Assembly: GCA_020058975.1 (NCBI GenBank) | Contig: JAGVDA010000062.1 | Coordinates: 1 to 32,870, forward strand | DNA length: 32,870 nucleotides | Reading direction: 5' to 3' | From: Thermosynechococcus sp. WC_1 | Lineage (GTDB): Bacteria; Cyanobacteriota; Cyanobacteriia; Thermosynechococcales; Thermosynechococcaceae | Program-made: the position numbers and the translations under genes | Shown: piece by piece, positions 4,312 through 21,309 of the stretch | Numbering within the stretch: the first letter of the stretch is position 1 | Layout: the number at the start of each line of letters is the position of its first letter | The notes under the pieces: model-generated | Database searches by the model: none | Told to the model about the DNA's origin: nothing | Seen by the model: the letters and a program-made list of their open reading frames with translations, nothing else

Positions 4312-5553
4312 ATGTCATTTCGAGTCAATTATCTCGAAATTCAAAAACATTCCGATAGCGCTGACGGCGTAATGACCGTTGAGGCGATCGCCCGTCATCC
4401 TGGCGTCCTTACCTATTACAAGGCCGATGGCTCCGTTCGTCGTGAGCTAGTTCCATCTGATCTACTTCGCGGATTCGATAGTAACGGTATGCCGCTTGCT
4501 GCAAAGTTAGCGGGTATTCCTGTTTCTAACGAGCATCCAAATACCCTATTTAGATCGCTTCCTGCTGATCGCAGAGATGCGCTTAAGAAAGGAGAGGTAG
4601 GAGCAGATGGAATTGAGGTCTACAAGGATGGTAGTACCCTGGTTCGCTTTCATGTGACCGACGCTGCCACTCAAGATGACATCCGTTCTGGAAGGAAGGA
4701 TGGCGTTTCGTTGGGGTATGAAGTTGGTTCAGTAGAGCGCGGCGGGGAATGGCAGGGCAAGCGTTATGACGCAATGCAGTCAATGCCTTTTGAGGCAGAT
4801 CATCTTGCCGTGGTGAAATATCCACGCGCTGACCAAGCTCGAATCGTTCGGTTTGATTCCGACTCGGAAGACCGAATGGACGATATTGCATGGCAAAAAG
4901 TTTGTGATTCTAAAGAGGTTCCAATGGCGACAATCCGGCTTGATAGTGGGGCATCGCATGAAGTGCCTGAGGCGGTTGCGATCGCCTGGGACTCTATGCA
5001 TCAAGACATGAAAAAGACTAAGAAGCAGATGGAAGAACTCGAAGGCGAGAAGGCTTCCATGAAAGAGGAGATGGACTCCCTTAACGACACGCTCGAATTC
5101 ATCAATACTCGTGTCGATGAACTTGAATCGGCTGAGCCAGTGATGGATTCAGATGCAGTCACCGCAGTTGTCAAAGACCGTGTTGATGCGTGGATTGATG
5201 TTGCTCAAGCCATCGGTCAACCCATCAATTTTGATGCAGGAGGTATCACTTTTGACCCCAATATGGATGCGGCTGATATCCATAAATCTTTAATCTCTGC
5301 AAAAGCGCCTGACCTCAAGCTAGATGGAATGAACGCCGACATGGTGAAGGGTCTATATGTCGGTTTATTTAAGACTGATTCTGTCAAGGCGGTTGCTCCC
5401 AAGCTAGATGCTGCGACTACCCTTCAGGCTCAGCTACAGGCAGCAGTCCTCGGCGGCGCGTCTCCTCGTAGTGATGCGAAGGCCGCACGTCAGGCAAAAA
5501 TGGACGCTGATCTGAAGCGTTCTCGTCAACCCATTCACGCAAAAACTGCGTAG
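4312..5553 (+). CDS. DUF2213-type prohead protein (protease/scaffold)
   Basis: A 413-residue protein that opens the head operon. Residues ~10-185 match the DUF2213 pattern found before capsid genes: EAIARHPGVLTYYKADGSVRR, GIPVSNEHPN, then RKDGVSLGYEVGSVERGGEW and AVVKYPRADQARIVR. This family is associated with prohead maturation and scaffolding. Residues ~230-275 form a charged coiled coil (KKTKKQMEELEGEKASM), as expected for a scaffold. The C-terminus is basic (KAARQAKMDADLKRSRQ). I cannot identify the catalytic residues, so protease activity is inferred from family and position. The ribosome site is weak. Confidence 0.8.
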   Translation: MSFRVNYLEIQKHSDSADGVMTVEAIARHPGVLTYYKADGSVRRELVPSDLLRGFDSNGMPLAAKLAGIPVSNEHPNTLFRSLPADRRDALKKGEVGADGIEVYKDGSTLVRFHVTDAATQDDIRSGRKDGVSLGYEVGSVERGGEWQGKRYDAMQSMPFEADHLAVVKYPRADQARIVRFDSDSEDRMDDIAWQKVCDSKEVPMATIRLDSGASHEVPEAVAIAWDSMHQDMKKTKKQMEELEGEKASMKEEMDSLNDTLEFINTRVDELESAEPVMDSDAVTAVVKDRVDAWIDVAQAIGQPINFDAGGITFDPNMDAADIHKSLISAKAPDLKLDGMNADMVKGLYVGLFKTDSVKAVAPKLDAATTLQAQLQAAVLGGASPRSDAKAARQAKMDADLKRSRQPIHAKTA

Positions 5554-6441: not shown

Positions 6442-7359
6442 ATGACTATCCCTATCGGACAAACTGTCTCCGCTCGTTTAGACGAGAACGAACAAATCTT
6501 TTTCGCTCGGCAGTTAGAGCAGATTGAAACAACCCTTTACGAAATTGAGTACCCAGACCTTAAAGGTCGAACTCACTTCCCTCTCAACTTTGAGGGTGGT
6601 CCAGCAATGCAGTCTTTCACGTATCGCGTGTTTGACCGCACTGGGGTTGCTCAAGCCGGACTCAACTTCCCTCGCGTTGGCATCAAGGCTCAAGAGCGAT
6701 CCACCATCGTTAAGTCCATCACGGACAGCTACGCCTACAACTTCCAAGAAATCCGCAACGCAAACGCGGTAAACATGAGCTTGGATGATGCTCTTGCGCG
6801 GGTGGCGCGACGGGCGATCGCAGAGTACGAAGACGAAGCGATCTACATGGGTAAGCCTGACCTAAATATGCCAGGTGCCTTCACTCACCCTAACTTCCCC
6901 ATTCAGTTGGCGGGGTTTGCGATTAGTGATGCCAGCACCAGTAAGCAGATCTTGGGAGTGTTCAATAGCCTTTTTAATCAGTTCCCTGTTCTAACAAAAG
7001 GCAAGCATCGCGCCACTGTCTGCCTGATGACGATCAAGGACTGGACTTATCTAACCACAACCCCGTGGAATGAAGCCAACTCTTCCAACATCATGATCAT
7101 GGACATGATTAAGAAAGGGCACCCGCAGGTTGAGTTTGATTGGTGCAACTACTGCACAGGCGCTGGCGACAATGGCGAAGATATCATTTTCGCCTACGAG
7201 CGCACCTCAGAGAACATGCAGGTTCGTATCCCTCATGACTTCGAGACGCTTGAGACAGTGGGACCAACTCAAGAATATGAGTATGTCACGGGCTGTCACG
7301 AACGCTTTGGCGGTCTTCAAGTTCGCTTTGCCTACGGTTCTATCCTTTACCTGAAATAA
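6442..7359 (+). CDS. Major capsid protein (DUF2184 type)
   Basis: A 305-residue protein that should form the icosahedral shell. The pattern is that of the DUF2184 capsid family: FEGGPAMQSFTYRVFD, the conserved AYNFQEIRNANAVNMSLDD segment, then RRAIAEYEDEAIYMGKPD, and a C-terminal QVRFAYGSILYL strand. Members adopt the HK97 fold. Length is typical. It follows the cement gene and precedes connector genes with tiny spacers, as in a single late operon. DUF2184 capsids commonly travel with DUF2213 and DUF1073 proteins, and both appear here. Confidence 0.85.
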   Translation: MTIPIGQTVSARLDENEQIFFARQLEQIETTLYEIEYPDLKGRTHFPLNFEGGPAMQSFTYRVFDRTGVAQAGLNFPRVGIKAQERSTIVKSITDSYAYNFQEIRNANAVNMSLDDALARVARRAIAEYEDEAIYMGKPDLNMPGAFTHPNFPIQLAGFAISDASTSKQILGVFNSLFNQFPVLTKGKHRATVCLMTIKDWTYLTTTPWNEANSSNIMIMDMIKKGHPQVEFDWCNYCTGAGDNGEDIIFAYERTSENMQVRIPHDFETLETVGPTQEYEYVTGCHERFGGLQVRFAYGSILYLK

Positions 7360-10541: not shown

Positions 10542-12425
10542 ATGACGACTGCCACACTCCAAACCAAGATGACCGATATCGTCGCTCGACTTGATAAGGC
10601 GTGTGGCAAGTCGTTTATTGCTGAAGGGCAGATATGTTCTAAGGAAGTGGTAGGGCGATCTACTAAGGGAGAGAACTCATCCCCAACAGCCTTAGCTGTC
10701 AATGATAAAACTCTATCTGCGCGTAAGCTTCTGACTGCTGGAGGTTTAATCGCATCTACCGCCCTTCTGGGCGTGTTGACAAAGAGTGGGCATGAGATCC
10801 TAACCTCAAAACTACCTGACGATGCAGTGCCACCACCAGAACCCCCAAAGGGTTTATATGACAGTTTTCAGTCTGGAGACTTAATCTATCAGGCCGTTGA
10901 TTTCGCAGGAACTAAACGGGCGCACTACTCTGTTTATGTTGGCAAGGTGAATGGAGAGCATCGAATTTTTGATGTGTCTACCAAGAAATCATCCAGCGGC
11001 AAAACAGAAGGATCTGTCGCCGCAGCTAGACCCATTGATGAAGCTCATTCGACTGGCTCAAGCTTCCAGCCAGCCTCAAGAGTAAGTGAGGATGGGGAGC
11101 GTCCATCGGCTGAACAGCTAAATAAGATCATTGACCAACTCAATGGGAAAGACTTTGATTGGTCTGGGTTCAAAACAAATTGCGAGACATTTGCTAGGAC
11201 GATCACAAATGATTTGCCCGTCTCCACTCAGTCTAAGAATGTGTCTCCATTGACGGCAGAAATTGTCTCAGGGTTAATGAGGGCAGCACTTCCAAAAGGC
11301 TACGAAAAACGTGCCATCAAACAGAATGAGGTTGCGAAAATTGTGAAGAAGACTTTGAACCAGGATGCCGCCATGAACCCCAAAGCCCAAGCCGCTCAAA
11401 TTCTCACACCTATCTTCAACAACCGCCCTGTGACGGTGATGTCGGTGTCTCTCAGTCCCGAGGGGAATCCCGTTGGCGTATTCCGTGGTGAACCGCGCCC
11501 AGGTCAGACCCACTACTACACTTTCAATATGGGTCAGAAAGTCACGTTTAAGCGGGTGATGGTGAAGCGGGATGCAATGGATGAAGGTTGTGGCTGTACC
11601 GAGTGCGACAAAAAGAAGAAGCGCAAGGGTGAGGCTTTCGAGAAGGTTGATGCTGACCCATGTTGGGAAGGGTTTAAGCAAGTTGGGATGAAGCGCAAGG
11701 GGAAGAAGCAGGTGCCCAACTGTGTGCCAGTCGGCGACAAAGTTGATGCACGCCTTGATAAAAAGTGTGGGGCATCTGGTATCCCTGACAATGCGAAGTG
11801 TACGAAGGCTGAAGGGGGTGCTACTCCAGACACAATGAGCGAGGCGGAGGCGCAAGCCCACGTCAAGAATAAAATCGAGACACACTATAAAAAGCAAGAG
11901 GCTAAAAAAGCCCGATCAAAAGCCGTTCGCAAGCAACTTTTGATTCTGGGAGGCTTGATTGCAACCAATGCCGCCATCCGCATCGCATCGAATATAGCTG
12001 TCGAGAAACAGGTAATGCAGCAGCATGGCGTTGACAAAGAAACGGCTCGGAAGTTCAGAAAAGATGTCGCTAAGGCATATCAAAAATATGGGAGTGCAGG
12101 AGCCAATGCCTTCTATGAAGCATGGAAGCGAGAGAATGACCCTAAAAGTGCCGGATCTTCAACTGCTAAAGCATCAGTCACTGATCGGAACTGGAATAAA
12201 ACCCTAGATGTGCCCGCAGATGCGACCCCTGCCCAGGTGAAGGCTGCTTTCCGCAAAAAAGCGAAGGAGACACACCCTGACTACGGTGGATCAGCCGCTG
12301 AATTTGCCAAGGTACAGAAGGCTTGGGAGTCAGCTCAAGCCCTCGGCAAGGTCAAACGCGGTGACTCCATTGAGATGGAATGGTTCATCAAGCGAATGGA
12401 CGCACGAAGTAAGGTGACGGGGTAG
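10542..12425 (+). CDS. LRAT-like / Cys-motif / J-domain fusion protein
   Basis: A 627-residue protein, starting at the ATG after GAGGG rather than at the longer frame overlapping its neighbour. In order: a Cys motif ARLDKACG..GQICSK (15-34), a hydrophobic segment (~62-80), and an LRAT or NlpC/P60-like domain (~108-250). That domain has candidate catalytic H128 (AHYSVYVG) and C214 (KTNCETF). Then come a Cys cluster (CGCTEC, ~350-355), a CW...VPNCVP motif (~374-396), a second ARLDKKCG..AKCTK motif and a second hydrophobic stretch (~464-484). It ends in a DnaJ-type J domain (~552-602) with HPD at 578-580. LRAT-like folds act on lipids or thioesters and J domains stimulate Hsp70. A virion or injection role, perhaps recruiting host DnaK, is inferred. 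Confidence 0.7.
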   Translation: MTTATLQTKMTDIVARLDKACGKSFIAEGQICSKEVVGRSTKGENSSPTALAVNDKTLSARKLLTAGGLIASTALLGVLTKSGHEILTSKLPDDAVPPPEPPKGLYDSFQSGDLIYQAVDFAGTKRAHYSVYVGKVNGEHRIFDVSTKKSSSGKTEGSVAAARPIDEAHSTGSSFQPASRVSEDGERPSAEQLNKIIDQLNGKDFDWSGFKTNCETFARTITNDLPVSTQSKNVSPLTAEIVSGLMRAALPKGYEKRAIKQNEVAKIVKKTLNQDAAMNPKAQAAQILTPIFNNRPVTVMSVSLSPEGNPVGVFRGEPRPGQTHYYTFNMGQKVTFKRVMVKRDAMDEGCGCTECDKKKKRKGEAFEKVDADPCWEGFKQVGMKRKGKKQVPNCVPVGDKVDARLDKKCGASGIPDNAKCTKAEGGATPDTMSEAEAQAHVKNKIETHYKKQEAKKARSKAVRKQLLILGGLIATNAAIRIASNIAVEKQVMQQHGVDKETARKFRKDVAKAYQKYGSAGANAFYEAWKRENDPKSAGSSTAKASVTDRNWNKTLDVPADATPAQVKAAFRKKAKETHPDYGGSAAEFAKVQKAWESAQALGKVKRGDSIEMEWFIKRMDARSKVTG

Positions 12426-12461: not shown

Positions 12462-12839
12462 ATGCTCAAATATCTCGCCATTGTCCTGCTGCTGACATCC
12501 TGTGCTGCGACTCCTCCGGCTGTTGTGGAAGCACCTTCTGTCACCCCAGAGGTCGTCAGTACGCCTGCCTCGGTACAGAAGCCTGCATCAGCTACCTGCA
12601 CCAGAAGGTATCAAGCTCTTGACCTGGAGATCTACCAATACTGCGTCTTAGAGGGTATGAGCTACGTCACAGTGGCGAATATCATTGGCAATGCTGGGCA
12701 TCCTGTCGCATCGGGAGGCGGATCTTCAACTGTGCAATGGAATGGCAGGACGGGAACGATGATGGCAACCTTTGTGGATGATCGGCTTGTTAGCAAAGCG
12801 CAGAGTGGACTAGAGCCATGTGTCAGCAATTGCCCATAG
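12462..12839 (+). CDS. Lipoprotein with BLIP/DUF3862-like domain (moron candidate)
   Basis: A 125-residue secreted lipoprotein. The N-terminus MLKYLAIVLLLTSCAA is a signal peptide with a lipobox (LTSC), cleaved before Cys14. A Pro/Val-rich linker follows. The C-terminal domain (YCVLEGMSYVTVANIIG, then STVQWNGRTGTMMATFVDD) has the repeat-like pattern of beta-lactamase-inhibitor-like or SmpA/OmlA-like domains. Two Cys at CVSNCP end the protein. It is separated from the tail genes by a short gap and followed by its own terminator. That is the layout of a moron, so a surface role such as superinfection exclusion is plausible but unproven. Confidence 0.7.
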   Translation: MLKYLAIVLLLTSCAATPPAVVEAPSVTPEVVSTPASVQKPASATCTRRYQALDLEIYQYCVLEGMSYVTVANIIGNAGHPVASGGGSSTVQWNGRTGTMMATFVDDRLVSKAQSGLEPCVSNCP

Positions 12840-13563: not shown

Positions 13564-13585
13564 ATTATACCATTCATGTGTACAT
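13564..13585 (-). promoter_or_regulatory. Array promoter P4 with TGTACA operator
   Basis: The minus strand has a perfect -10 TATAAT at 13564-13569 and the palindrome ATGTACACAT at 13576-13585, six bases upstream of it. The -35 position is poor, so activation or a weak basal promoter is possible. The leader toward 13432 contains a CCCTTTTAGGG hairpin similar to the second hairpin of the repeat elements. Confidence 0.6.
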
Positions 13586-13615
13586 GGCGGTAGTGGCAAT
13601 ATTCCCGAAGGAAAT

Positions 13616-13661
13616 GCGAACGCCCCGAATCGAACGGGGTGAACCTCCAGTAGGCGATCGC
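13616..13661 (-). repeat. tRNA-like element b
   Basis: T-arm CCCCG-TTCGATT-CGGGG (13623-13639) with a short acceptor pairing GCGA/TCGC, the 5' part lying on a HIP1 site just past the stop of the gene at 13670. A TTTCC..GGGAA hairpin follows. It closes one transcription unit, and promoter P4 lies just downstream. Confidence 0.7.
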
Positions 13662-13669
13662 TATGAAGT

Positions 13670-13825
13670 TTATGGGTCTAGATGATCGTCAGTTAATTTC
13701 TGCATATTCCTAGCGTATCTATCTATGTCTTTGACTGCCTCGCTTAAGTCAATCCTTGAGGCTTTCAACATTAGTTCATGGTTCGCGCTATAAACTGTTC
13801 GCAGAATTTGAGCTTTATTCATCAT
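13670..13825 (-). CDS. Hypothetical small helical protein
   Basis: A 51-residue (or 50, if the second ATG is used) charged helical protein: MMNKAQILRTVYSANHELML..., ending DDHLDP. AAGGAG precedes the start, and its first ATG follows directly on the TGA of the upstream gene, so the two are coupled. No tRNA-like element lies between them, in keeping with the rule that coupled pairs lack one. Function is unknown. Confidence 0.65.
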   Translation of the reverse strand: MMNKAQILRTVYSANHELMLKASRIDLSEAVKDIDRYARNMQKLTDDHLDP

Positions 13826-13984
13826 TCACTCCTTCCCCTGTATCGGGAAAATAACTACTTGGCAATGTGTGTGCCCCAAACGCTCCAGCCGCCTCACTTC
13901 TCGACGTGCTTCATGGATGTCCCATGTGTCGAGAAGTTCGCTGAAGCTGGTTGCGTCTGGGGTGATTGAGAGAATGGCGATCAT
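13826..13984 (-). CDS. Hypothetical small protein, coupled both sides
   Basis: A 52-residue protein (MIAILSITPDATSFSELLDT...) with a basic helix (HEARREVRRLERLG) and a strand-like end (CQVVIFPIQGKE). Its ATG overlaps the stop of the upstream gene (ATGA) and its own TGA abuts the next start. The ribosome site is weak, so translation probably depends on coupling. No family is recognised. Confidence 0.65.
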   Translation of the reverse strand: MIAILSITPDATSFSELLDTWDIHEARREVRRLERLGHTHCQVVIFPIQGKE

Positions 13985-14226
13985 TGTCTTGAGAAATGAC
14001 CGACGATTTGTTTTTTCGCCGTTTGCTCATCCTCTGATAACGAGAACTGCCCATTTCCTTTAGTCTGGCTCCAACTCTGATCCGAGTTTTGCCAAACGTA
14101 TAGACCCTCGTAGTTCTTGTTCGTTCGGTATTCAGAAACAGGAGTCATTTCATCCTCGAAGTCGATTTTGAAAGACCATCCTGTTTCGTCTGCATGGACT
14201 CCTCTAGTGAGGCTTAGAATCTTCAT
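13981..14226 (-). CDS. Hypothetical small protein
   Basis: An 81-residue protein from the ATG that follows GGAG by seven bases (MKILSLTRGVHADETGWSF...). Trp/Tyr-rich strands (GLYVWQNSDQSWSQTKGNGQ) suggest a small beta domain, then a helix (EDEQTAKKQIVGHF). A longer in-frame extension would run back through the tRNA-like element and is unlikely. The stop overlaps the next start. No known family. Confidence 0.7.
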   Translation of the reverse strand: MKILSLTRGVHADETGWSFKIDFEDEMTPVSEYRTNKNYEGLYVWQNSDQSWSQTKGNGQFSLSEDEQTAKKQIVGHFSRQ

Positions 14227-14268
14227 CTTCAATCTCCATTTCTTTACAACATCCGGCGAACCGGAATA

Positions 14269-14316
14269 CCCACCCGCCGAATCGAACGGCGGCACCAAAG
14301 GGTGAACCAATGTGGG
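14269..14316 (-). repeat. tRNA-like element c
   Basis: CCCAC pairs with GTGGG around T-arm CCGCCG-TTCGATT-CGGCGG (14274-14292). The linker contains a CACC-CTTT-GGTG mini-hairpin in the anticodon-arm position. The second hairpin ATTCCGG-TTCG-CCGGAT (14251-14267) has a UUCG tetraloop. Acceptor and T-arm are identical to element l at 18840. Confidence 0.85.
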
Positions 14317-14320
14317 CGAA

Positions 14321-14533
14321 TCAGTCTATTAAATCCAGATCTGCAAGGTTATCTCTTAGATTGATTGCTAAGGTGTCAGCCTGCTCATCTGTTAATCCAG
14401 ACTCAGCCATCTGATAAAGATTTATTTCACGGTCTTCGTTGAGCCAGTTCAGATACAAAGTTGCTTCTGCTTCTGTTCCGTGCCTATAAAGGGTTTCGGT
14501 GTTATAAGCCGTAAACTCAAATGTGGTTTCCAT
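14321..14533 (-). CDS. Hypothetical small acidic protein
   Basis: A 70-residue acidic protein (METTFEFTAYNTETLYRHGT...) with a Glu/Leu-rich helical C-terminus (TDEQADTLAINLRDNLADLD). CAGGAAA lies seven bases before the ATG. Its stop TGA lies five bases before the acceptor strand of element c. Such small acidic proteins are frequent in phage early regions; no specific function is visible. Confidence 0.75.
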   Translation of the reverse strand: METTFEFTAYNTETLYRHGTEAEATLYLNWLNEDREINLYQMAESGLTDEQADTLAINLRDNLADLDLID

Positions 14534-14570
14534 ATTTCTTTCCTGTACGTTAAATCCCCTTTCGAGGAAT

Positions 14571-14616
14571 ACCAGCAGGGGGGAGTCGAACCCCCATTCT
14601 TCCTTTAGACTGCGGT
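14571..14616 (-). repeat. tRNA-like element d
   Basis: T-arm GGGGG-TTCGACT-CCCCC (14579-14595). The acceptor ACCGCAG pairs with CTGC-T-GGT (one bulged T), and its 5' half lies in the last codons of the gene at 14605. A TTCC..GGGGA hairpin follows, then the ribosome site. Confidence 0.75.
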
Positions 14617-14718
14617 AGTGACCTTAAACTCAACCTTGAAGCTGCCTATGAAGCGCTTGAACGCCTTCACAACGGCAACGGCTAACTGGTCACAGAATAA
14701 ACTAATGAGTTGAAGCAT
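14605..14718 (-). CDS. Very small amphipathic protein (37 residues)
   Basis: A 37-residue protein: MLQLISLFCDQLAVAVVKAF, then KRFIGSFKVEF and VTTAV. AAGGAC lies six bases before the ATG. The hydrophobic, then basic, pattern suggests an amphipathic or membrane-touching helix. The C-terminal ...TTAV echoes the ...ATAV of the upstream gene at 14805, perhaps an old duplication. The acceptor strand of element d overlaps its final codons and stop. It could be a toxin-like or membrane-active peptide, but that is only suggested by composition. Confidence 0.6.
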   Translation of the reverse strand: MLQLISLFCDQLAVAVVKAFKRFIGSFKVEFKVTTAV

Positions 14719-14804
14719 GGTCTTGTCCTTGAGTGAAGTATAAGTGCTTTGTGGCTTGCGTCCATACGGGTAGGGCTTACGCCTTTTCGCAGCTCAGGAG
14801 CCTC

Positions 14805-15083
14805 TTAAACTGCTGTTGCCAGCTTCATCATCAACTTAGCTTTCGTATCATTTTTGTGATACTGTACCGCGCGATTGCGGCACTCGCCCCGAAGGAGTCT
14901 TAGTTTTTGCTTTGCCTGTATCACCGCTGGCAGCGCGAGGCTTGCGGGGGCGGGTAGATACAGCTTTCGTGGCTTGCGGATGAGAGTGAGCTTCACTTGG
15001 AACAGGCTCTTGAAGAGGTTCCACAGTGGCTTGACCACTTGATTGACTGCCCACTTCATCGCTTTCTTGATTAGATTGAACAT
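14805..15083 (-). CDS. Basic amphipathic protein overlapping another gene out of frame
   Basis: A 92-residue basic protein starting MFNLIKKAMKWAVNQVVKP, an amphipathic helix with Trp, then a basic body ending KLMMKLATAV. It starts inside the gene at 14848-15414 and shares 236 bases with it in a different frame. Its start region (22 bases up to the ATG) repeats the start region of that gene with two mismatches, good evidence that this internal start is used. No tRNA-like element follows it; the 86-base gap to the next gene holds only weak hairpins. Confidence 0.55.
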   Translation of the reverse strand: MFNLIKKAMKWAVNQVVKPLWNLFKSLFQVKLTLIRKPRKLYLPAPASLALPAVIQAKQKLRLLRGECRNRAVQYHKNDTKAKLMMKLATAV

Positions 15084-15414
15084 TGTATTTATCTCGTAAT
15101 GTTTGTGTGATGTGCTGCTCCAGCTTCTGCTGGTTTGTGGCGATCGCCTGTGTAGTGATGGGCGATTCCTTAGCGGGACACAGCAGCCCCGCGATGACCA
15201 CAGGTGCGGTCGGTGCTTCCTCCGGAGTGGAGAAGCTATCCACGAAGGTTCGCATTAAGCGACCTGCTTCGACCGTCCAGTAGACGGCCTCCATGCAATA
15301 GAATGCCACCAATAATGTGTGGCTGATTGCTGTTGACTTAAAGAAAGCCTTTGCCTCCTCATTGGTCAACTCTCCATAAGCTGCTTTTGCAGCCAATACA
15401 ATTGGATGTGTCAT
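14848..15414 (-). CDS. Hypothetical protein with disordered Pro/Ser/Lys-rich tail
   Basis: A 188-residue protein starting MTHPIVLAAKAAYGELTNEE. The N-terminal half is helical and hydrophobic (SHTLLVAFYCMEAVYWTVEA, ~32-51) and may touch a membrane. The second half is low-complexity and basic (RPRKPRAASGDTGKAKTKTP). The tail is exactly the part overlapped out of frame by the gene at 14805, so its composition may be shaped by the other frame. It is the first gene after promoter P3, whose leader carries an ACGGGC/GCCCGT hairpin. No family is recognised. Confidence 0.65.
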   Translation of the reverse strand: MTHPIVLAAKAAYGELTNEEAKAFFKSTAISHTLLVAFYCMEAVYWTVEAGRLMRTFVDSFSTPEEAPTAPVVIAGLLCPAKESPITTQAIATNQQKLEQHITQTLRDKYNVQSNQESDEVGSQSSGQATVEPLQEPVPSEAHSHPQATKAVSTRPRKPRAASGDTGKAKTKTPSGRVPQSRGTVSQK

Positions 15415-15486
15415 TGTTTTAATCTCGTAATGTTTTAATTGGCCTACGGGCTTTGTAGTGATGCCCGTTTTGTGGCTATGACATCC

Positions 15487-15515
15487 ATTATACAAGATGT
15501 GTACATGGCTGTCAA
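15487..15515 (-). promoter_or_regulatory. Array promoter P3: consensus sigma-70 with operator in the spacer
   Basis: On the minus strand TTGACA (15510-15515) and TATAAT (15487-15492) are separated by exactly 17 bases. The palindrome ATGTACACAT (15497-15506) lies inside the spacer, where a bound repressor would block polymerase. This is the best promoter in the window. Confidence 0.85.
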
Positions 15516-15517
15516 TT

Positions 15518-15566
15518 GCGATGTAGGGGCGCGACCCCTACAGGCAGTCCTTTAGTCTGCGATCGC
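15518..15566 (-). repeat. tRNA-like element e
   Basis: T-arm-like hairpin GTAGGG..CCCTAC (15523-15541) with loop GTCGCGC rather than TTCGATT. Acceptor GCGAT/ATCGC, the 5' half lying in a HIP1 site within the end of the gene at 15552. The -35 of promoter P3 follows within two bases; no second hairpin is present. Confidence 0.65.
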
Positions 15567-15851
15567 ATCGAATGGAACGGTATGACACCCATAAGGGCAT
15601 ACCCAGGCGTTGAATCCTCCGTTATCGCAGGTTCGCTGCTTCTTTATCTTGTTCCATAAGATAGTGGTAGAGACGCGACCAGAAGCCTCGTACTCTTTGA
15701 ATTTTTGAGTGTAGAGTTCATGGTTGAACCCATCGACCTCATCTGCATCCCATTCCGCTGCAATTACGCAGAGGTCATGGAATGGGAGTGCTTTAAGGTT
15801 TTCTCTAGCGTTTTCGTAAGCTTCAGGTGTGTGTGACCATTCCCAAGCCAT
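15552..15851 (-). CDS. Hypothetical phage protein (MAWEWSHT... type)
   Basis: A 99-residue protein. The N-terminal pattern (W.HTPEAYENARENLKAL, then CVIAAEWDADE) recalls small proteins scattered through phage early regions. The C-terminus has four Cys/His-type residues (CDNGGFNAWVCPYGCHTV) that could hold zinc. GGAGAT precedes the ATG and overlaps the stop of the upstream gene, so the two are coupled. Its last codons form the acceptor strand of element e. Function unknown. Confidence 0.75.
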   Translation of the reverse strand: MAWEWSHTPEAYENARENLKALPFHDLCVIAAEWDADEVDGFNHELYTQKFKEYEASGRVSTTILWNKIKKQRTCDNGGFNAWVCPYGCHTVPFDAIAD

Positions 15852-15855
15852 AGTT

Positions 15856-16071
15856 TTATCTCCAGATTGATAGATAGTGTGTGCCCAGCCAAAACTGGGT
15901 TAGTGATGCGTAGCATTTTGGTTGACGGTCAGTGCTGAGTTTGATATTCAGCCCATTGTGTCGGCTGACTGTGCAGCGAATGACAAGTCGCCATCCGGTA
16001 AAGTCAAAACCAAATACGAAGCAAAGTAGCCGATCAAATTCGACTACAGATCCTAAAATCTGTCGTTTCAT
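15856..16071 (-). CDS. Hypothetical small protein
   Basis: A 71-residue protein starting MKRQILGSVVEFDRLLCFVF with AGGAG six bases upstream. It is aromatic and beta-rich in the middle (FDFTGWRLVIRCTVSR). The stop lies inside the ribosome site of the next gene, so they are coupled, and no tRNA-like element separates them, although a CCCAG/CTGGG hairpin lies near the 3' end of the coding region. No family is recognised. Confidence 0.7.
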   Translation of the reverse strand: MKRQILGSVVEFDRLLCFVFGFDFTGWRLVIRCTVSRHNGLNIKLSTDRQPKCYASLTQFWLGTHYLSIWR

Positions 16072-16107
16072 AATCTCTCCTGTGTATAAAATCCGGCGAA
16101 CCGGAAT

Positions 16108-16154
16108 GCGATACGCGGGGAATCGAACCCCGCCTGTGGCTAACCTGCGATCGC
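16108..16154 (-). repeat. tRNA-like element f
   Basis: T-arm GCGGGG-TTCGATT-CCCCGC (16115-16133), acceptor GCGAT/ATCGC with its 5' half on a HIP1 site in the final codons of the gene at 16140. The second hairpin ATTCCGG-TTCG-CCGGAT (16091-16107) is identical to that of element c. Confidence 0.85.
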
Positions 16155-16361
16155 TGGCTGTCTTGTTTCAGACAACCTCATGTACTCACTCATTAGGTCA
16201 ATGGTGGCTAACTGCCCATAGGCTTGAGCCATCAGAACCCAGAGGATACGCTTTGCCTCATCTGATTGGATTGAGGCTGAGTCGAACTCAGTCAATCCAT
16301 TTGCAAAAGGCTTTGGATTGCAAGGGATTGAGTTTGCAAACATTGCGTCTTGAATAGACAT
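16140..16361 (-). CDS. Hypothetical small protein
   Basis: A 73-residue protein (MSIQDAMFANSIPCNPKPFA...) with a helical C-terminal half (AKRILWVLMAQAYGQLATID). I choose the ATG at 16361 because AGGAG lies at proper spacing; the longer frame runs back into the second hairpin of element g. The stop TAG lies within the linker of element f. No family is recognised. Confidence 0.7.
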   Translation of the reverse strand: MSIQDAMFANSIPCNPKPFANGLTEFDSASIQSDEAKRILWVLMAQAYGQLATIDLMSEYMRLSETRQPAIAG

Positions 16362-16400
16362 ATTCTGTTCTCCTGTTGTGTACATCCCTTTCGGGAATAC

Positions 16401-16442
16401 CCCTAGCCACCAGTGAGGTGGCGTGATTCTCTCTAGGGGTTA
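16401..16442 (-). repeat. tRNA-like element g (GCCACC variant)
   Basis: Acceptor ACCCCTAG/CTAGGGGT (8 bp) encloses a linker and the arm GCCACC-TCACT-GGTGGC (16408-16424), then A and the hairpin TTCCC-GAAA-GGGA. Element n at 19564 has the same arm but a different, equally well-paired acceptor, which is direct covariation. Confidence 0.85.
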
Positions 16443-17009
16443 ATCAGCTAGGGTACCGTCATCGTTAAATGAGCGGTCTTCTAACATCTGAGAAATGGCT
16501 TCTCTGCTCGTCTGATACTCATATTCGTCTTGCAGCTTTGTTAGGCACTTGTGAGTAAAATCGCTTAAAGCGTCTTCTAAAAAGCGCTCTGCTAAGGCGT
16601 AGTTATCGTTCGAGTCAATGTACCAATTTGACCCGTCCGTTGAAATCGACGGAGTGCCGTATCGGTAGTTCAAACAGAAGTCACGGCTTCTAATGAGTCT
16701 GGCTACGCTGGTGTGTAGTTTGTATGTTGCTCTGTCCTTGGCGGGGTTCTTCTCTAAGTAGAGAGAGGCTAAGGCATCCCAATCTGCGTTCAGATCGCTG
16801 AACCCTATCTTCCCGCTACGATCAAGGTCAAATTCATTGGGTGTCCCACTGAACCCGTCGAATCCTTCTGAAATATCTTCGTAGACCCATTCCCACCATT
16901 CATTATCTACATTCCAGTCCCAGTATTTCTCTAAGGCTTTCCGCTTTGCCACCTCAGGAAGTTCGTTCCATTGGTAAATAAGCTTTGAACGTGTGACTAA
17001 TTCAGGCAT
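16440..17009 (-). CDS. Widespread phage protein (WWEWVYED-type), function unknown
   Basis: A 189-residue protein from the ATG preceded by AGGAG; a longer upstream frame would read through element h. The N-terminal half shows the pattern of a family seen in many phages: YQWNELPEVAKRKALEKYWD, then EWWEWVYEDI and FDLDRSGKIGFSDL. The C-terminal half (DEYEYQTSREAISQMLED) and the ending ...FNDDGTLAD are also typical. Homologues are sometimes labelled as antitoxin-like, but no activity is established to my knowledge. Its presence supports a phage origin for the array. The stop abuts element g. Confidence 0.75.
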   Translation of the reverse strand: MPELVTRSKLIYQWNELPEVAKRKALEKYWDWNVDNEWWEWVYEDISEGFDGFSGTPNEFDLDRSGKIGFSDLNADWDALASLYLEKNPAKDRATYKLHTSVARLIRSRDFCLNYRYGTPSISTDGSNWYIDSNDNYALAERFLEDALSDFTHKCLTKLQDEYEYQTSREAISQMLEDRSFNDDGTLAD

Positions 17010-17048
17010 AACATTCTCCTGTGTAGATAAAATTCCCTTACGGGAAAT

Positions 17049-17101
17049 GCCAAGGCGAGGAGTCGAACCCCAAGATCTCCGTAGACCTGCCAATCCTTAG
17101 C
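17049..17101 (-). repeat. tRNA-like element h with anticodon-arm-like hairpin
   Basis: Acceptor GCTAAGG/CCTTGGC (7 bp, one G-T), a hairpin AGGTCT-ACGG-AGATCT in the anticodon-arm position, then a T-arm TGGGG-TTCGACT-CCTCG and a discriminator-like A. About 53 bases: the shape of a tRNA lacking the D-arm. The second hairpin TTTCCC..GGGAA follows. Confidence 0.8.
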
Positions 17102-17171
17102 AGCCACCATTTTGACGCTAACGCTCTCAAGGTATCTGTGGCACCATTGCTGCGACGTGTTTTTTAGCGGC

Positions 17172-17312
17172 CTACGCTCCGCCCCTCTTTCGAGGTTGGG
17201 TTAACTCTACCCACACGCACCTCTGTTCTGGCTTGCGCTTGACCCAGTAGCGGCTCGTCTCTGGGACTGGTTTGATGCTCCAGTAAGCTGAGAATGGTTG
17301 ATGCAGAAGCAT
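17172..17312 (-). CDS. Hypothetical small basic protein
   Basis: A 46-residue protein (MLLHQPFSAYWSIKPVPETS...) with Trp and basic residues (RYWVKRKPEQRCVWVEL) and a basic end (RKRGGA). AGGAAG lies five bases before the ATG; a longer frame from 17369 is possible but has no better start. Element h lies about 70 bases downstream. The residue pattern looks coding, but there is no family match. Confidence 0.5.
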   Translation of the reverse strand: MLLHQPFSAYWSIKPVPETSRYWVKRKPEQRCVWVELTQPRKRGGA

Positions 17313-17901
17313 TGCACTTCCTAGGGATGACGCGAAGCCTGATGTCCGAGCCTTTGATGGTAAAACCATTTCCGGTTGGGAGAAGTACTTAGGTCAAGTC
17401 TGTTACGCTAACTGCCTTTGTCCTCGCTCTGAGGTGCAGCCCGCACGACATCAAAAAGAATGGAATGAACCAATGCGGGAGACGTTGCACTCCCATGTGA
17501 ACCTACGGATACATCCTGGGTGGATACAGGCTTGCAGAGGCAGGGGCGAATTAATACGCTAGTCTGGTTTAAGGGTTCCCCACCACATCTAAGTGGCTCC
17601 AGCCCGTACAACATTGGTCGGTGTGTCTGCCTTTGTAACGTGGTGGCAGACCTGCCCGCGTGGATTCTTACCCAGCCCACTTAGGCTGCATCTGACGAAA
17701 ACTGTGTCTGCCTAACCATCGGCATGGGCACTTTATGTTTCAATTCCCTGCTCGTGGAACCCTCACATATTTAGACGGCTTGAGTCGTGCCGTTCCTATT
17801 TATTTGAGTCGTCTGGTCTGACGACCGATATCGATTATTTGATAACCTTGCCCACGGCACTATTCCCGTTACGTGTTCTGTTTTAGGGTCAAAGGTCAAT
17901 G
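17313..17901 (-). other. Gene-poor, hairpin-rich stretch inside the array
   Basis: No convincing gene lies here. GTGCCGT (17787-17793) pairs with ACGGCAC (17854-17860), and inside that span a GTCGTC/GACGAC hairpin (17808-17825) is present. The sequence TTGAGTCGT occurs twice, and AGGCAGACACA occurs twice on the minus strand near 17640-17720. It may hold a structured RNA or a decayed gene. No known RNA family is recognised. Confidence 0.4.
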
Positions 17902-17942
17902 GCCTTGGGACGAATCGAACGCCCCATCAACAACCAGTAGGC
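17902..17942 (-). repeat. tRNA-like element i (weak acceptor)
   Basis: T-arm GGGGCG-TTCGATT-CGTCCC (17907-17925) with one G-T pair. The acceptor is only four pairs (GCCT/AGGC). No second hairpin of the usual type follows; the hairpin-rich gene-poor stretch begins here. Confidence 0.6.
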
Positions 17943-18109
17943 TAACCCCGTTGGGGTAAATAATAGGCGAGGGGTCTACCCTCAACTGTGAACTCTAGAA
18001 GAGTTTGAATGTCTCTGGCAGCCTGTGCCGCCGTTGCCATGTTTTGTAGATTCATCAACCGCAATGCTGCGAATGAATCAGTCTTGGCACGAACTTTAAG
18101 TGATTGCAT
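17942..18109 (-). CDS. Hypothetical small protein, first gene after promoter P2
   Basis: A 55-residue protein (MQSLKVRAKTDSFAALRLMN...) with a helical middle (ATAAQAARDIQTLLEF) and ending YLPQRG. CAGGAG lies at good spacing before the ATG. It follows element j and the P2 leader. It is basic at the start and helical throughout; no family is recognised. Confidence 0.65.
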   Translation of the reverse strand: MQSLKVRAKTDSFAALRLMNLQNMATAAQAARDIQTLLEFTVEGRPLAYYLPQRG

Positions 18110-18147
18110 GATCTTTCTCCTGTACGTGAAATCCCATTACTGGGAAT

Positions 18148-18196
18148 ACAGACGGGCGAACTCGCATCGCTCTGACCTTCTAAATCGGTCGTCCGT
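18148..18196 (-). repeat. tRNA-like element j with anticodon-arm-like hairpin
   Basis: Acceptor ACGGACG/CGTCTGT (7 bp with one wobble), a hairpin ACCGATTTAGAAGGT in anticodon-arm position, T-arm GCGA-TGCGAGT-TCGC, then A and the hairpin TTCCCA..TGGGA. The middle hairpin closely matches that of element t (ACCGATTCGGAAGGT). Confidence 0.75.
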
Positions 18197-18334
18197 AGCT
18201 TTTCCTGTTCCCTTATCGTCAACTCCGCTTCAGGTGGCTTAACCAGGTAATTACGGGTTCCAATGAACCGTTTGTTAAAGCTTGTTGGTTGTTTTTTCTC
18301 TGTTTCAACCTTATGTATACATAATAGCATATCC
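18197..18334 (-). other. Leader of promoter P2
   Basis: The stretch between promoter P2 and element j has no gene with its own ribosome site. A frame stays open through it (KVETEKKQPTSFNKRF...) and reads on through element j, which may be a decayed coding end. Together with element j and the promoter it fills the 338-base gap between 18109 and 18448. Confidence 0.4.
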
Positions 18335-18350
18335 ATGTGTACATTGGCAA
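18313..18350 (-). promoter_or_regulatory. Array promoter P2 with two TGTACA-type operators
   Basis: On the minus strand TTGCCA (18345-18350) and TATTAT (18321-18326) are 18 bases apart. ATGTACACAT (18335-18344) fills the spacer, and a second, fully symmetric palindrome ATGTATACAT (18313-18322) overlaps the end of the -10. Two sites could allow cooperative repression. Confidence 0.8.
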
Positions 18351-18396
18351 GCATTATTTCGATATTTCTTTGATTATCTTTGAATAGCTTCGGAAT

Positions 18397-18446
18397 GCGA
18401 CGAGATGGCATTCCACCATCTCTGTCAGGTTGGTTACTGTTGTCGC
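18397..18446 (-). repeat. tRNA-like element k (degenerate loop)
   Basis: Hairpin AGATGG-TGGAATG-CCATCT (18403-18421) in T-arm position, acceptor GCGAC/GTCGC, the 5' half starting just after the stop of the gene at 18448. The T-loop consensus is lost. It closes a transcription unit; promoter P2 lies downstream. Confidence 0.6.
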
Positions 18447-18447
18447 T

Positions 18448-18579
18448 TTAGAGCGTTGCTAGGAATCGCTCAAATTCTGCCACTTCGTCATCTAGGTCAT
18501 TCTTGGCCTTTTTCATTGCCTTGTGCTGAAGCATTAGGCATCTGATTTGAAGCGTCAGAAGCGTTTTGTCGTCATTCAT
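18448..18579 (-). CDS. Hypothetical very small helical protein
   Basis: A 43-residue charged helical protein (MNDDKTLLTLQIRCLMLQHK...) ending DDEVAEFERFLATL. AGGAG lies at good spacing, and its ATG overlaps the stop of the upstream gene (ATGA), giving coupling with no repeat element between. It looks like a short coiled coil. No family is known. Confidence 0.65.
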   Translation of the reverse strand: MNDDKTLLTLQIRCLMLQHKAMKKAKNDLDDEVAEFERFLATL

Positions 18580-18734
18580 GGTCGCTCTCCTGAATTGGTG
18601 ATTGCTGTCTCATATCCGTGAGCTTGTCGCCATTTCTGTTCTCCTGAGAGAGCTTTGTGGGAGTCAGCCCCAGAATATTTGAGCCAGATACCGCCCAGCG
18701 AGGGCGATTTTATCCATAAGGTGAATTTGTCCAT
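18576..18734 (-). CDS. Hypothetical small protein
   Basis: A 52-residue protein (MDKFTLWIKSPSLGGIWLKY...) with GGAG seven bases before the ATG, and a stop overlapping the next gene. Inside it lies another perfect ribosome site (AGGAGAACAGAAATG) that would start a seven-codon frame. That copy resembles the leader of the gene at 16140-16361, so the gene may be a mosaic built over an old gene start. Confidence 0.55.
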   Translation of the reverse strand: MDKFTLWIKSPSLGGIWLKYSGADSHKALSGEQKWRQAHGYETAITNSGERP

Positions 18735-18756
18735 GATTGTCTCCTGTGTGTTGAAT

Positions 18757-18838
18757 AATCCCTACAGGCGATCGCACAGTACACCGACCCGACCCAATGG
18801 GCGAGGCTGGTGGTTGGCGCGATGACCTGTGTGGGAAT
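18757..18838 (-). repeat. Expanded second hairpin of element l
   Basis: Here the ATTCCC..GGGATT hairpin is extended by an ACAGG/CCTGT stem and opened by a loop of about 57 bases that contains a HIP1 site. All other copies have loops of a few bases. Confidence 0.5.
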
Positions 18839-18839
18839 G

Positions 18840-18878
18840 CCCACCCGCCGAATCGAACGGCGGTGATTCCTTTGTGGG
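18840..18878 (-). repeat. tRNA-like element l
   Basis: Acceptor CCCAC/GTGGG and T-arm CCGCCG-TTCGATT-CGGCGG (18845-18863) with a ten-base linker. Identical stems to element c. It lies just past the stop of the gene at 18882. Confidence 0.85.
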
Positions 18879-18881
18879 TTG

Positions 18882-19115
18882 CTAGTTGGGGGTTGAGACC
18901 TCCCACCACCCTTCATACGGCACTCCGTCTTCGGGATCTTCGTCCGTCATCCGAATGTTGTCGTTTAGTGTTCCGCTGGTAAATCCTTCCGCCATCATTT
19001 TGGCGATTTGATTGTCCGCGGTTTCTTCTAATGCAGGGATATGTTCGGAGATGATCTCGTTATCCTCGCGCCACCAGCGGTATGTAACTGTTTTGCTACG
19101 TTCAAGCTGTTGCAT
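18882..19115 (-). CDS. Hypothetical acidic phage protein (...GWWEV type)
   Basis: A 77-residue acidic protein from the ATG seven bases after AGAGGG (MQQLERSKTVTYRWWREDNE...). A central helix is followed by EGFTSGTLNDNIRMTDEDPE and GVPYEGWWEVSTPN. The ending YxGWWEV is a pattern I associate with small proteins of other phages, though no function is known to me. A longer upstream frame would include the repeat region and is unlikely. Confidence 0.7.
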   Translation of the reverse strand: MQQLERSKTVTYRWWREDNEIISEHIPALEETADNQIAKMMAEGFTSGTLNDNIRMTDEDPEDGVPYEGWWEVSTPN

Positions 19116-19157
19116 ATTGTGTCCCTCTATCGCGTGTAAAATCCCATCACTGGGAAG

Positions 19158-19205
19158 ACCCCCGCCCCGAGTTGAACGGGGCAAGCCTACCTGCTAGGCG
19201 GGAGT
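19158..19205 (-). repeat. tRNA-like element m with anticodon-arm-like hairpin
   Basis: Acceptor ACTCCC/GGGGGT (one wobble), then GCCTA-GCAGG-TAGGC in anticodon-arm position (19185-19199), then T-arm GCCCCG-TTCAACT-CGGGGC (19164-19182). The stop codon of the gene at 19194 lies inside the middle hairpin. The hairpin TTCCCA-GTGA-TGGGA follows. Confidence 0.8.
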
Positions 19206-19523
19206 GTTGGCGTGAATCGCCCAATTGATGACCTCTAAAGAAGGGAATGGTACGCCTAATTCGCGGGGAATTAGCCGTTCTCTCCATTCCTTTCTAGTCG
19301 CGTAGGTGCCATAGTATTTGCCATTACGCTCAAGCACTGCGAAGTAAATCGCTTGCCCATCTAATGAGTCCGTGTAAGCCTCTCCACAAAGGCAGGCTCC
19401 ATAGCCGCCCATGACGGGAGGAACGCACTCAATGCGCCACTGATATGTCTCGTAATCAATCTCATGCCATTGACGAGCATTGGCATAGAGATCATCACGA
19501 AGCTGGTCGTAAATGCTGGACAT
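19194..19523 (-). CDS. Hypothetical protein
   Basis: A 109-residue protein (MSSIYDQLRDDLYANARQWH...) with AGGAAA before the ATG. The middle is aromatic and Cys/Gly-rich (PPVMGGYGACLCGEAYTD, then YFAVLERNGKYYGTYATRKE), suggesting a compact beta-rich domain. Its last codons and stop overlap element m. No family is recognised. Confidence 0.75.
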   Translation of the reverse strand: MSSIYDQLRDDLYANARQWHEIDYETYQWRIECVPPVMGGYGACLCGEAYTDSLDGQAIYFAVLERNGKYYGTYATRKEWRERLIPRELGVPFPSLEVINWAIHANTPA

Positions 19524-19563
19524 AATTTTTTCCTGTGTGTGAATAAATCCTCTTACGAGGAAT

Positions 19564-19607
19564 GCCCATAGCCACCAGCGAGGTGGCGTGATTCTGAATC
19601 TATGGGC
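19564..19607 (-). repeat. tRNA-like element n (GCCACC variant)
   Basis: Acceptor GCCCATAG/CTATGGGC (8 bp perfect) with the arm GCCACC-TCGCT-GGTGGC (19571-19587). The stop codon TAG of the gene at 19600 forms the end of the acceptor strand. The hairpin TTCCTC-GTAA-GAGGA follows. Confidence 0.9.
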
Positions 19608-19800
19608 GTGGAGCGGATAGGTGAGCCTCGTCTACGGGACTCCAGGGAGCGCTTTTAAGGTCAAGGTAGTATTTTGCGACTGGCCCATAACGCTCTCCTG
19701 ACCAAAACTCCCGACCAGTGATGATAAAGTTCCCCCACTGGACTCCATAACAATTGGTGTAGAAGACTTTCTCTCCTATCTCATACTTAAACTCAGGCAT
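19600..19800 (-). CDS. Hypothetical small beta protein
   Basis: A 66-residue protein (MPEFKYEIGEKVFYTNCYGV...) with AGGAG eight bases before the ATG. The pattern IGEKVFY...WGNFIITGRE...YYLDLKSAPWS.VDEAHL is that of a small SH3-like or KOW-like barrel of the kind seen in many small phage proteins. The last codons make the acceptor strand of element n. Function unknown. Confidence 0.75.
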   Translation of the reverse strand: MPEFKYEIGEKVFYTNCYGVQWGNFIITGREFWSGERYGPVAKYYLDLKSAPWSPVDEAHLSAPRP

Positions 19801-19840
19801 AATATTCTCCTGTTTGTGTGTAAATCCCCACGAGGGGAAT

Positions 19841-19898
19841 GCGACCGGAGGGAATCGAACCCTCCAACGGCTTTATGCCGCCACAACCACGCGATCGC
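19841..19898 (-). repeat. tRNA-like element o (acceptor uncertain)
   Basis: T-arm GGAGGG-TTCGATT-CCCTCC (19847-19865). A CGGC-ATAAA-GCCG hairpin precedes it in anticodon-arm position and contains the stop codon of the gene at 19873. The acceptor GCGAT/GTCGC is possible through a HIP1 site but includes a wobble and a long linker. The hairpin ATTCCCC-TCGT-GGGGAT follows. Confidence 0.65.
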
Positions 19899-20427
19899 CT
19901 TTCGCTTCTAGGTGATGTGATGCCATTTTGAGGTAGAGATCAAGCATCTTCTGTCTGTCCTTTAACAGTGACCAACGGGGCATCCCAATGGCCTTCTCCA
20001 TGTATTCCAGCAAAAGCCACTCAATTTGTGTTTGGGCGTATTCTGCAACCAGCGCTGGGTTTTTCCCAAAGCTAGGGTCACTTGGAGCAATGTCGTCAAG
20101 GATATAAGCAGTCGCCTCATCATCTGTGATGGGCTTATAGTCAAACCCATTCTCAATATGTTTTTTGTGGGATAAAACCACGAACTCCCGAAAGAGTTCA
20201 TCATCATCACTCAGGTAAGCGAGTTTAGGGTCTGTGATGAGCGTGCATGGGTTATCCCCATGCTTGTCTTCTTTGAACCCTAAACTCTGGAAAAGTGGAA
20301 TCTCATAAGCATCGACCTTTTGACGGATCAGCTTAGCAAGTGCCATTGCTTCATACAATCGTGAAGCAATACCCAAGAACTCTTGGGATTCAATGACTGC
20401 CTGAAGCTTTGGTGCGTTAAGTTCCAT
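19873..20427 (-). CDS. Hypothetical protein, largest soluble product of this sub-cluster
   Basis: A 184-residue acidic helical protein. AAGGAG is followed at six bases by the ATG at 20427 (MELNAPKLQAV...); an in-frame ATG two codons earlier sits directly on the ribosome site and is less likely. Recognisable stretches are LSDDDELFREFVVLSHKKHI and YAQTQIEWLLLEYMEKAIG. No catalytic motif or family is recognised. Confidence 0.75.
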   Translation of the reverse strand: MELNAPKLQAVIESQEFLGIASRLYEAMALAKLIRQKVDAYEIPLFQSLGFKEDKHGDNPCTLITDPKLAYLSDDDELFREFVVLSHKKHIENGFDYKPITDDEATAYILDDIAPSDPSFGKNPALVAEYAQTQIEWLLLEYMEKAIGMPRWSLLKDRQKMLDLYLKMASHHLEAKGDRVVVAA

Positions 20428-20465
20428 ATTCATCTCCTTCTAAAAATCGGCTGAGTTGCCGAAAA

Positions 20466-20502
20466 CCTAGCCGCCGAATCGAACGGCGGAATACCTCCTA
20501 GG
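20466..20502 (-). repeat. tRNA-like element p
   Basis: Acceptor CCTAG/CTAGG, T-arm CCGCCG-TTCGATT-CGGCGG (20471-20489), linker of eight bases. The stop TAG of the gene at 20498 is part of the acceptor strand. The following hairpin is TTTTCGGC..GCCGA. Confidence 0.85.
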
Positions 20503-20686
20503 TGATATTGACTTGACCAACGACATTGCCGTTACGGTCAATCAGTGACTGAATGCATGGGGCATCACCTAGCCCTCCCTTCTCGATATTATTAGCAAGA
20601 TTTCGTAGAATCCTGCCCACTTCATCTTCAGGGAAATTCTCAAATGCAGCATTGCCACATCTGATTTCGAGAGTAACTTTGTCCAT
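20498..20686 (-). CDS. Hypothetical small phage protein (NAAFE type)
   Basis: A 62-residue protein from the ATG after GGAGAAAAGACA (MDKVTLEIRCGNAAFENFPE...). The arrangement of a strand, NAAFE, a helix with ILRNLANNIE.GG, and a closing DRNGNVVGQVNIT strand recalls small proteins found in many phage genomes, function unknown. A longer frame starting inside the T-arm of element q is spurious. The stop lies in the acceptor strand of element p. Confidence 0.75.
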   Translation of the reverse strand: MDKVTLEIRCGNAAFENFPEDEVGRILRNLANNIEKGGLGDAPCIQSLIDRNGNVVGQVNIT

Positions 20687-20720
20687 TGTCTTTTCTCCAT
20701 AAATCCGCTGAATTGCGGAA

Positions 20721-20759
20721 TCCCAGGATGCGGAATCGAACCGCATCTACTCCAACTGG
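20721..20759 (-). repeat. tRNA-like element q
   Basis: Acceptor CCCAG/CTGGG, T-arm ATGCGG-TTCGATT-CCGCAT, linker of nine bases. The second hairpin TCCGC..GCGGA follows. It starts directly after the stop codon of the gene at 20761. Confidence 0.85.
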
Positions 20760-20760
20760 G

Positions 20761-20919: not shown

Positions 20920-20959
20920 TGTCTTTGTCCTTTTGTTTGGTGAAATCCCTTGCGGGAAT

Positions 20960-21275: not shown

Positions 21276-21309
21276 TTTATCTCCTGTACATTAGATCCCT
21301 TTCGGGAAT

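Follow-up and report, generated by a model that had tools for sequence, protein, structure and literature searches.

What brings an LRAT-like domain and a J domain into one phage protein, and where would the two act? The question is raised by a 627-amino acid protein, here P0001, encoded in a 32,870-nucleotide contig assigned to Thermosynechococcus sp. WC_1 (JAGVDA010000062.1; assembly GCA_020058975.1), the whole of which is referred to below as the window. The original prediction saw it as a membrane-associated, chaperone-recruiting virion protein. Our preferred reading, to which we give a probability of about one half, is that P0001 is a virion-associated polyprotein of the polyvalent type, made by a tailed phage, which would deliver a membrane-anchored LRAT-type enzyme and a J domain to the host. 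The protein is better read as two successive units in one chain, each consisting of a Cys tag, a putative transmembrane segment, and an effector domain, than as a single LRAT-J enzyme. Its main features are as follows.

10542–12425, + strand: gene for the tag-LRAT-tag-J protein (P0001), 627 amino acids; open reading frame from ATG 10542 to the stop at 12425
10587–10643, + strand: tag-i copy 1, residues 16–34, RLDKACGKSFIAEGQICSK, with R-x-D-K before it
10725–10781, + strand: hydrophobic segment 1, a 19-mer, residues 62–80, KD 1.52
10857–11207, + strand: LRAT-type domain, residues 106–222, candidate catalytic H128, D144, and C214 (Pfam, profile, AlphaFold2/Foldseek)
11394–11561, + strand: small beta module, residues 285–340, kept in the paralogue P0002
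11658–11729, + strand: tag-ii (CWEGF..G..VPNC), residues 373–396
11751–11807, + strand: tag-i copy 2, residues 404–422, RLDKKCGASGIPDNAKCTK
11940–11996, + strand: hydrophobic segment 2, a 19-mer, residues 467–485, KD 1.44
12174–12341, + strand: J domain, residues 545–600 (Pfam DnaJ, AlphaFold2/Foldseek), with HPD 578–580 at 12273–12281

Domains and tagged units of P0001

The LRAT family of Pfam (PF04970) matches P0001 at E = 0.007 (17–18 bits) and matches P0002, a 903-amino acid paralogue with 49% identity on another contig of the same genome (C216), at E = 7.5e-5 (23.4 bits), both under the 24.3-bit cut-off. All ten phage homologues of the LRAT region, located in five viral contigs (L047, L048, L050, L067, and L074) and in genome G154, match the same family (best 6.8e-9); the full G154 protein and the L074 homologue score 58 and 44 bits against that cut-off. 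H128, C214, and E215 are invariant in the alignment of the ten, and D, E, or H occupies the third polar position; in P0001, H128 lies within AHYSVYVG and C214 within TNCETF. Searching the PDB with a profile of these homologues recovered HRASLS2 (5.6e-7) and PLA2G16 (1.2e-6), and Foldseek matched the full-length P0001 model to H-REV107/PLAAT3 at probability 1.00 (TM-score by target up to 0.77; E about 0.006–0.07). Two of the ten homologues also match NLPC_P60, weakly. From these profile and model matches we infer that the first unit carries an LRAT-type thiol enzyme with H128, D144, and C214 as candidate residues. P0001 has the fold, the H-then-C order, the NCE motif, and a hydrophobic helix in common with PLAAT3/H-REV107 and the LRAT acyltransferases (PF04970); it differs from them in that the third residue is D rather than His, the helix stands before rather than after the domain, and the setting is a phage.

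The DnaJ family (PF00226) matches P0001 above its cut-off (E = 1.1e-7; 32.3 bits versus 27.8) and P0002 at E = 1.7e-9. The AlphaFold2 model of P0001 has a mean pLDDT of 70.9, with values of about 90 for a large part of the LRAT core and of the J domain, where helices II (563–577) and III (585–600), also at about 90, flank the HPD. The best PDB matches that Foldseek returned for the full-length model were PLAAT3 and J domains, at probability 1.00 and with E-values of about 0.006–0.2. Because both domains are kept across 49% identity in P0002 and are recovered by structure, their presence is not attributable to chance. Thus, the HPD-based J-domain call and the LRAT-type placement of His and Cys in the original prediction both hold; the structure comparison that it had proposed as a check found the LRAT fold as well as the J-domain helices.

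A canonical class A or B DnaJ was considered and rejected: about 27 residues follow the J domain, and no Pfam match to a G/F region, zinc finger, or C-terminal substrate domain was found. The order in the second unit, a hydrophobic helix and then a C-terminal J domain, is that of the membrane J proteins Tim14/Pam18, and Tim14 (2guz_A) matches the P0001 model with a TM-score by target of 0.69; this likeness is one of layout only, and homology is claimed for the J domain alone. J domains encoded by phages are already known (PMC3486835, PMC7824862). Rki, the J-domain protein of phage RB43, binds DnaK and helps the phage (PMC3486835); it resembles P0001 in its HPD-bearing J domain and in host DnaK as the proposed target, whereas P0001, encoded by a late gene, is a Cys-tagged fusion with predicted membrane anchors. 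Matches to TJE1 and Strzyga were set aside, being confined to the J domain, outside a head cassette, and with no tag noted. A phage search with the tagged J protein of viral contig L034 returned no match.

The original prediction took the two Cys motifs (residues 16–34 and 404–422) to frame a single protein. We reject that arrangement: each motif opens its own series of tag, hydrophobic segment, and effector. The hydrophobic stretch that had been noted after each motif is present in both places (62–80 and 467–485). The first unit (18 to about 343) would comprise an R-x-D-K-x-C-G Cys tag, a hydrophobic helix, and the LRAT-type thiol enzyme; the second (404 to about 606) would comprise a tag of the same form, a hydrophobic helix, and the J domain. 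The second type of tag, tag-ii (CWxGYxxxG...VPNC), sits between the two units, and P0002 has four copies of tag-i. A hydrophobic segment follows tag-i in 49 of 77 cases, compared with 217 of 1460 random positions (15%) within those proteins; for untagged proteins the figure is 5%. That LRAT and J domains occur together in one chain stands, as predicted, in the sense of two units; in related phages the two modules sit in separate tagged proteins.

The phage and the tag family

The window is a phage-type contig with recognizable genes for terminase, DUF2213 head protease, cement, major capsid, and portal, and IMG/VR contig 2830687482_000004 matches it. A putative tape measure protein was identified by its resemblance, judged by eye, to that of Aphanizomenon phage CL131. 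The P0001 gene begins at ATG 10542, immediately preceded by GAGGG and separated by 4 bases from the upstream gene (end 10537), which an alternative start at ATG 10461 would overlap. On contig C216, P0002 is preceded by relatives of the same two genes that stand 5' of P0001. The host is probably a cyanobacterium, given the isolate phages in which these modules also occur. Four further genes bear on the tags and their processing.

4312–5553, + strand: candidate processing enzyme, a head maturation protease (DUF2213) in which R-x-D-[SA] occurs six times
6442–7359, + strand: major capsid protein, with R-x-D near the N terminus (SARLDENE)
22152–23891, + strand: 579-amino acid protein with tag-iii at its start, related to hydrolase-like modules of CL131 gp048; the second tagged protein of this phage
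31786–32868, + strand: portal protein, incomplete where the contig stops; contig C400 encodes a homologue of it fused to tag-i

The third type, tag-iii (CxxGxxCGxxCI....C), opens the 579-amino acid protein, whose gene lies 5' of the putative tape measure gene. The model of this protein is too poor (mean pLDDT 47.9) for us to assign it a hydrolase fold.

Tag-i occurs in 42 viral loci, the window included, which do not amount to 42 independent cases since several contigs are near-identical. Blast with the head proteins of the window, the MuF protein of L016, and the portals and proteases of relatives placed portal, MuF, protease, or capsid genes next to the tagged genes in 42 of 42 loci; the order is generally portal, MuF, protease, capsid, with tagged genes in between. 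The expected association with virion genes is thus borne out by the gene order around P0001 and by the tagged relatives beside head genes. Besides LRAT, the tags are joined to protein/APH-type kinases, an ADP-ribosyltransferase, hydrolase-like domains, and J domains (4.3e-8 in L034; 1.1e-5, under the cut-off, in L030). A polymorphic toxin of MuF type was rejected for P0001, which has no MuF match; MuF is a separate adjoining gene in the relatives. For tag-ii there are 364 phage records, the majority from cyanophages; the motif also lies in a cyanophage protein with a structural annotation and within the head maturation protease of HSTV-1. Phage CL131 has three tagged proteins (gp045, gp047, and gp048), the last encoded directly 5' of its tape measure gene.

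Full-length P0001 matched only the window itself among viral contigs; a two-sequence alignment used as query gained one further locus, and two scans of genome contigs found no relatives. A tag-i profile matched only P0001's own genome among 390 genomes of the same class, which makes the tag uncommon in this sample. Searching phages with a 31-residue tag gave no match.

Several individual tagged proteins are of note. One in L031 (9176–10213) joins tag-iii and a hydrophobic segment to an ADP-ribosyltransferase (PF03496, 3e-10) and is encoded between MuF and head protease genes. Tagged protein-kinase or APH-type proteins in head cassettes were recognized by Pfam (L072:389–3322, L049:405–3281, L053:1063–6234, and L055) or by eye (L065:5938–7044 and L066:5962–7113). 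L085:3131–6358, corresponding to contig C400 of P0001's own genome, encodes a fusion of portal, tag-i, GNAT, and InPase, and contig C390 of that genome encodes a tag-i protein with an HELGH motif. A 1366-amino acid protein of genome G154 (L021:11846–15946, on contig C82) has two LRAT domains, each preceded by a Cys motif similar to tag-ii, and then tag-iii and a hydrolase-like module resembling the 579-amino acid protein of the window. A conserved C-terminal domain (DAEDGKKYTKxVTNPxTGRKxxVRYGAKGY...CARSFGDMKS...) is found in the C-terminal parts of the proteins encoded at L034 (5950–7917), L048 (5179–6969), L050 (223–1998), and L037 (4873–6588); it is also present in cyanophage S-TIM5 and Roseobacter phage CRP-212, occurs more weakly in Vibrio phages, and had no Pfam match in L050 or L034.

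Elsewhere in the window, 11 copies of an intergenic element lie 5' of small genes on the minus strand (13585–21359), with three more in L013 near 671, 4610, and 5505. Each has a hairpin like a tRNA T-arm (loop TTCGA[TC]T), then another hairpin, and in many cases a site of AGGAG type; the stems show covariation, with a score of 0.61 versus 0.16 after shuffling and 92% of cells paired. ARAGORN found no tRNA in the element, and Rfam returned only a sub-threshold tmRNA fragment. It is possibly a tRNA-like leader or processing element of mRNA.

Candidate head-protease sites

If P0001 is cut in the prohead, the positions would be sought in its linkers, where most of the following candidate sites stand.

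11565–11576, + strand: candidate site KRDA, residues 342–345 (K-x-D form, a weaker case)
11643–11654, + strand: candidate site KVDA, residues 368–371 (K-x-D form, weaker)
11739–11762, + strand: candidate sites KVDA and RLDK, residues 400–407
12357–12368, + strand: candidate site RGDS, residues 606–609
12393–12404, + strand: candidate site RMDA, residues 618–621

Among 18 DUF2213 proteases, no spaced residue pair is more enriched than R-x-D (166 observed versus 49.5 expected). R-x-D-[SA] occurs in tagged proteins at 2.6 times expectation, and the controls RD, R..D, R.E, and R.N[SA] are not enriched; many tags have R-x-D-K just before them. Within the window, the protease has six R-x-D-[SA] motifs, P0001 two, the 579-amino acid protein one, and the other open reading frames checked none. 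In CL131, an isolate outside the discovery of the pattern, the protease and tagged proteins have 11 sites versus 2.1 expected, and the other proteins 3 versus 3.5, in a test that also allowed K after D. The seven [RK]-x-D-[SAK] sites of P0001 fall mostly in linkers predicted to be unstructured (mean pLDDT block 47.7 versus 70.7; P = 0.0017, a statistic that includes the K-x-D forms as its weaker part). Because the R-x-D motifs are enriched, lie in linkers predicted to be disordered, and recur in CL131, we consider that the head protease probably cuts P0001 into separate units in the prohead.

Proposed delivery, rival explanations, and known systems

Sequence and structural models show the domains and the tag family; packaging, cleavage, ejection, and both activities are what we propose on that basis. 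The tags would carry the P0001 chain into the prohead with other tagged proteins, as gene context and the fusions suggest, and the DUF2213 protease would cleave the linkers at R-x-D-[SA/K], releasing the units, a step to which the motif statistics point. The units may then exit with the DNA and enter the host inner membrane through their hydrophobic helices. There, close to where the DNA enters, the LRAT unit would work in the manner of PLAAT enzymes, judging from fold and residues: it would transfer or hydrolyze acyl groups carried by lipids of the host membrane or by acylated proteins. The J unit would draw host DnaK to the same place, possibly so that DnaK pulls phage proteins in or folds them, or so that the host is deprived of DnaK.

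Several points weigh against this reading. The LRAT match of P0001 itself is below the Pfam cut-off, and the position of the second LRAT His is occupied by D. The R-x-D counts in the DUF2213 proteases are not independent, as these proteins are homologous. With tag regions masked, R-x-D is no longer among the top enriched pairs of the tagged proteins, so the signal in that set is moderate; additionally, three of the seven P0001 sites have K-x-D, a form that shows no enrichment in tagged proteins. The presence of P0001 and of all the tagged proteins in the particle is read from gene context and fusions. Finally, the P0001 gene comes after tail-type genes, not between portal and capsid, so that a location in the tail is possible.

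That late position behind the tail-type genes would also suit a morphogenesis factor that is never ejected, whose J domain recruits DnaK in the producing cell for folding or assembly of heads or tails, with the LRAT-like domain structural or concerned with virion processing; jumbo-phage DnaJ proteins are predicted to aid folding and assembly (PMC7824862). We regard this as rather unlikely, since the kinase, ADP-ribosyltransferase, GNAT, and InPase domains carried on the same tags suit effectors better. It is quite improbable that P0001 is a particle component for breaching the envelope, its LRAT-type domain acting at entry like an NlpC/P60 peptidoglycan peptidase with the J domain as accessory. 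The two enzyme types belong to the same superfamily, two of the ten homologues match NLPC_P60 weakly, and phage NlpC/P60 proteins are sometimes tail-associated (PMC7824862); however, the H-then-C order and NCE motif are of LRAT type, the profile and fold matches are to PLAAT phospholipase/acyltransferases, and a soluble wall hydrolase is ill suited to a membrane anchor. We give very little weight to a membrane protein of the infected or lysogenic cell, serving for example in superinfection exclusion or lysis and absent from the particle: the tag is common to a portal fusion and to proteins within head cassettes, even though P0001 has two hydrophobic segments, the window has an integrase-like gene (1185–1994) suggestive of a temperate element, and a lipoprotein-like open reading frame (12462–12839) is next downstream, 3' of the P0001 gene.

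A virion-delivered P0001 would come nearest to the polyvalent proteins known from phages and conjugative elements, for which processing and injection have been proposed (Iyer et al., 2017, PMC5512222). As in P0001, polyvalent proteins combine disparate domains in one chain and are encoded beside virion genes, and ADP-ribosyltransferase, kinase, GNAT, and InPase domains from that catalogue occur in tagged relatives of P0001. The organization differs: in P0001 processing would fall to the head protease, not to a zincin within the chain, and each unit begins with a short Cys tag and a hydrophobic helix. LRAT, DnaJ, J domain, and transmembrane are not mentioned in the survey's main text; P0001 would thus be a variant with a different organization and two domain types outside that main text. 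Head proteins of SPN3US (PMC10052503) and internal proteins of T4 are packaged in the head, cut by a prohead protease, and ejected with the DNA, as proposed for P0001; the protease here is of another family, the proposed site is R-x-D-[SA/K], and packaging is deduced. The original prediction presented a chaperone-recruiting virion protein as new. That novelty is misplaced as regards phage J domains; we found no report of an LRAT domain in a phage virion-gene setting, of an LRAT-J fusion, or of the tag family.

A broader interpretation, which we hold tentatively and rate as possible rather than probable, is that Cys-tag and membrane-helix modules with an R-x-D head-protease code serve as a general means of sorting across a large group of tailed aquatic phages, loading and cutting polymorphic membrane-anchored enzymes in the head and releasing them at the site of DNA entry; P0001 would then be a virion-delivered LRAT lipid enzyme together with a Tim14-like membrane J protein. 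If true, Cys tag, hydrophobic helix, and R-x-D sites would provide a sequence rule for recognizing enzymes in phage particles, one that would cover cyanophages, most of whose virion proteins are without assigned function. A lipid-type enzyme and a DnaK recruiter would join the proposed virion-delivered repertoire, and the loading and release of such cargo would become testable. PLAAT3 aids picornavirus genomes in crossing membranes (PMC10102619), so a phage LRAT domain working where the DNA enters would make a notable parallel.
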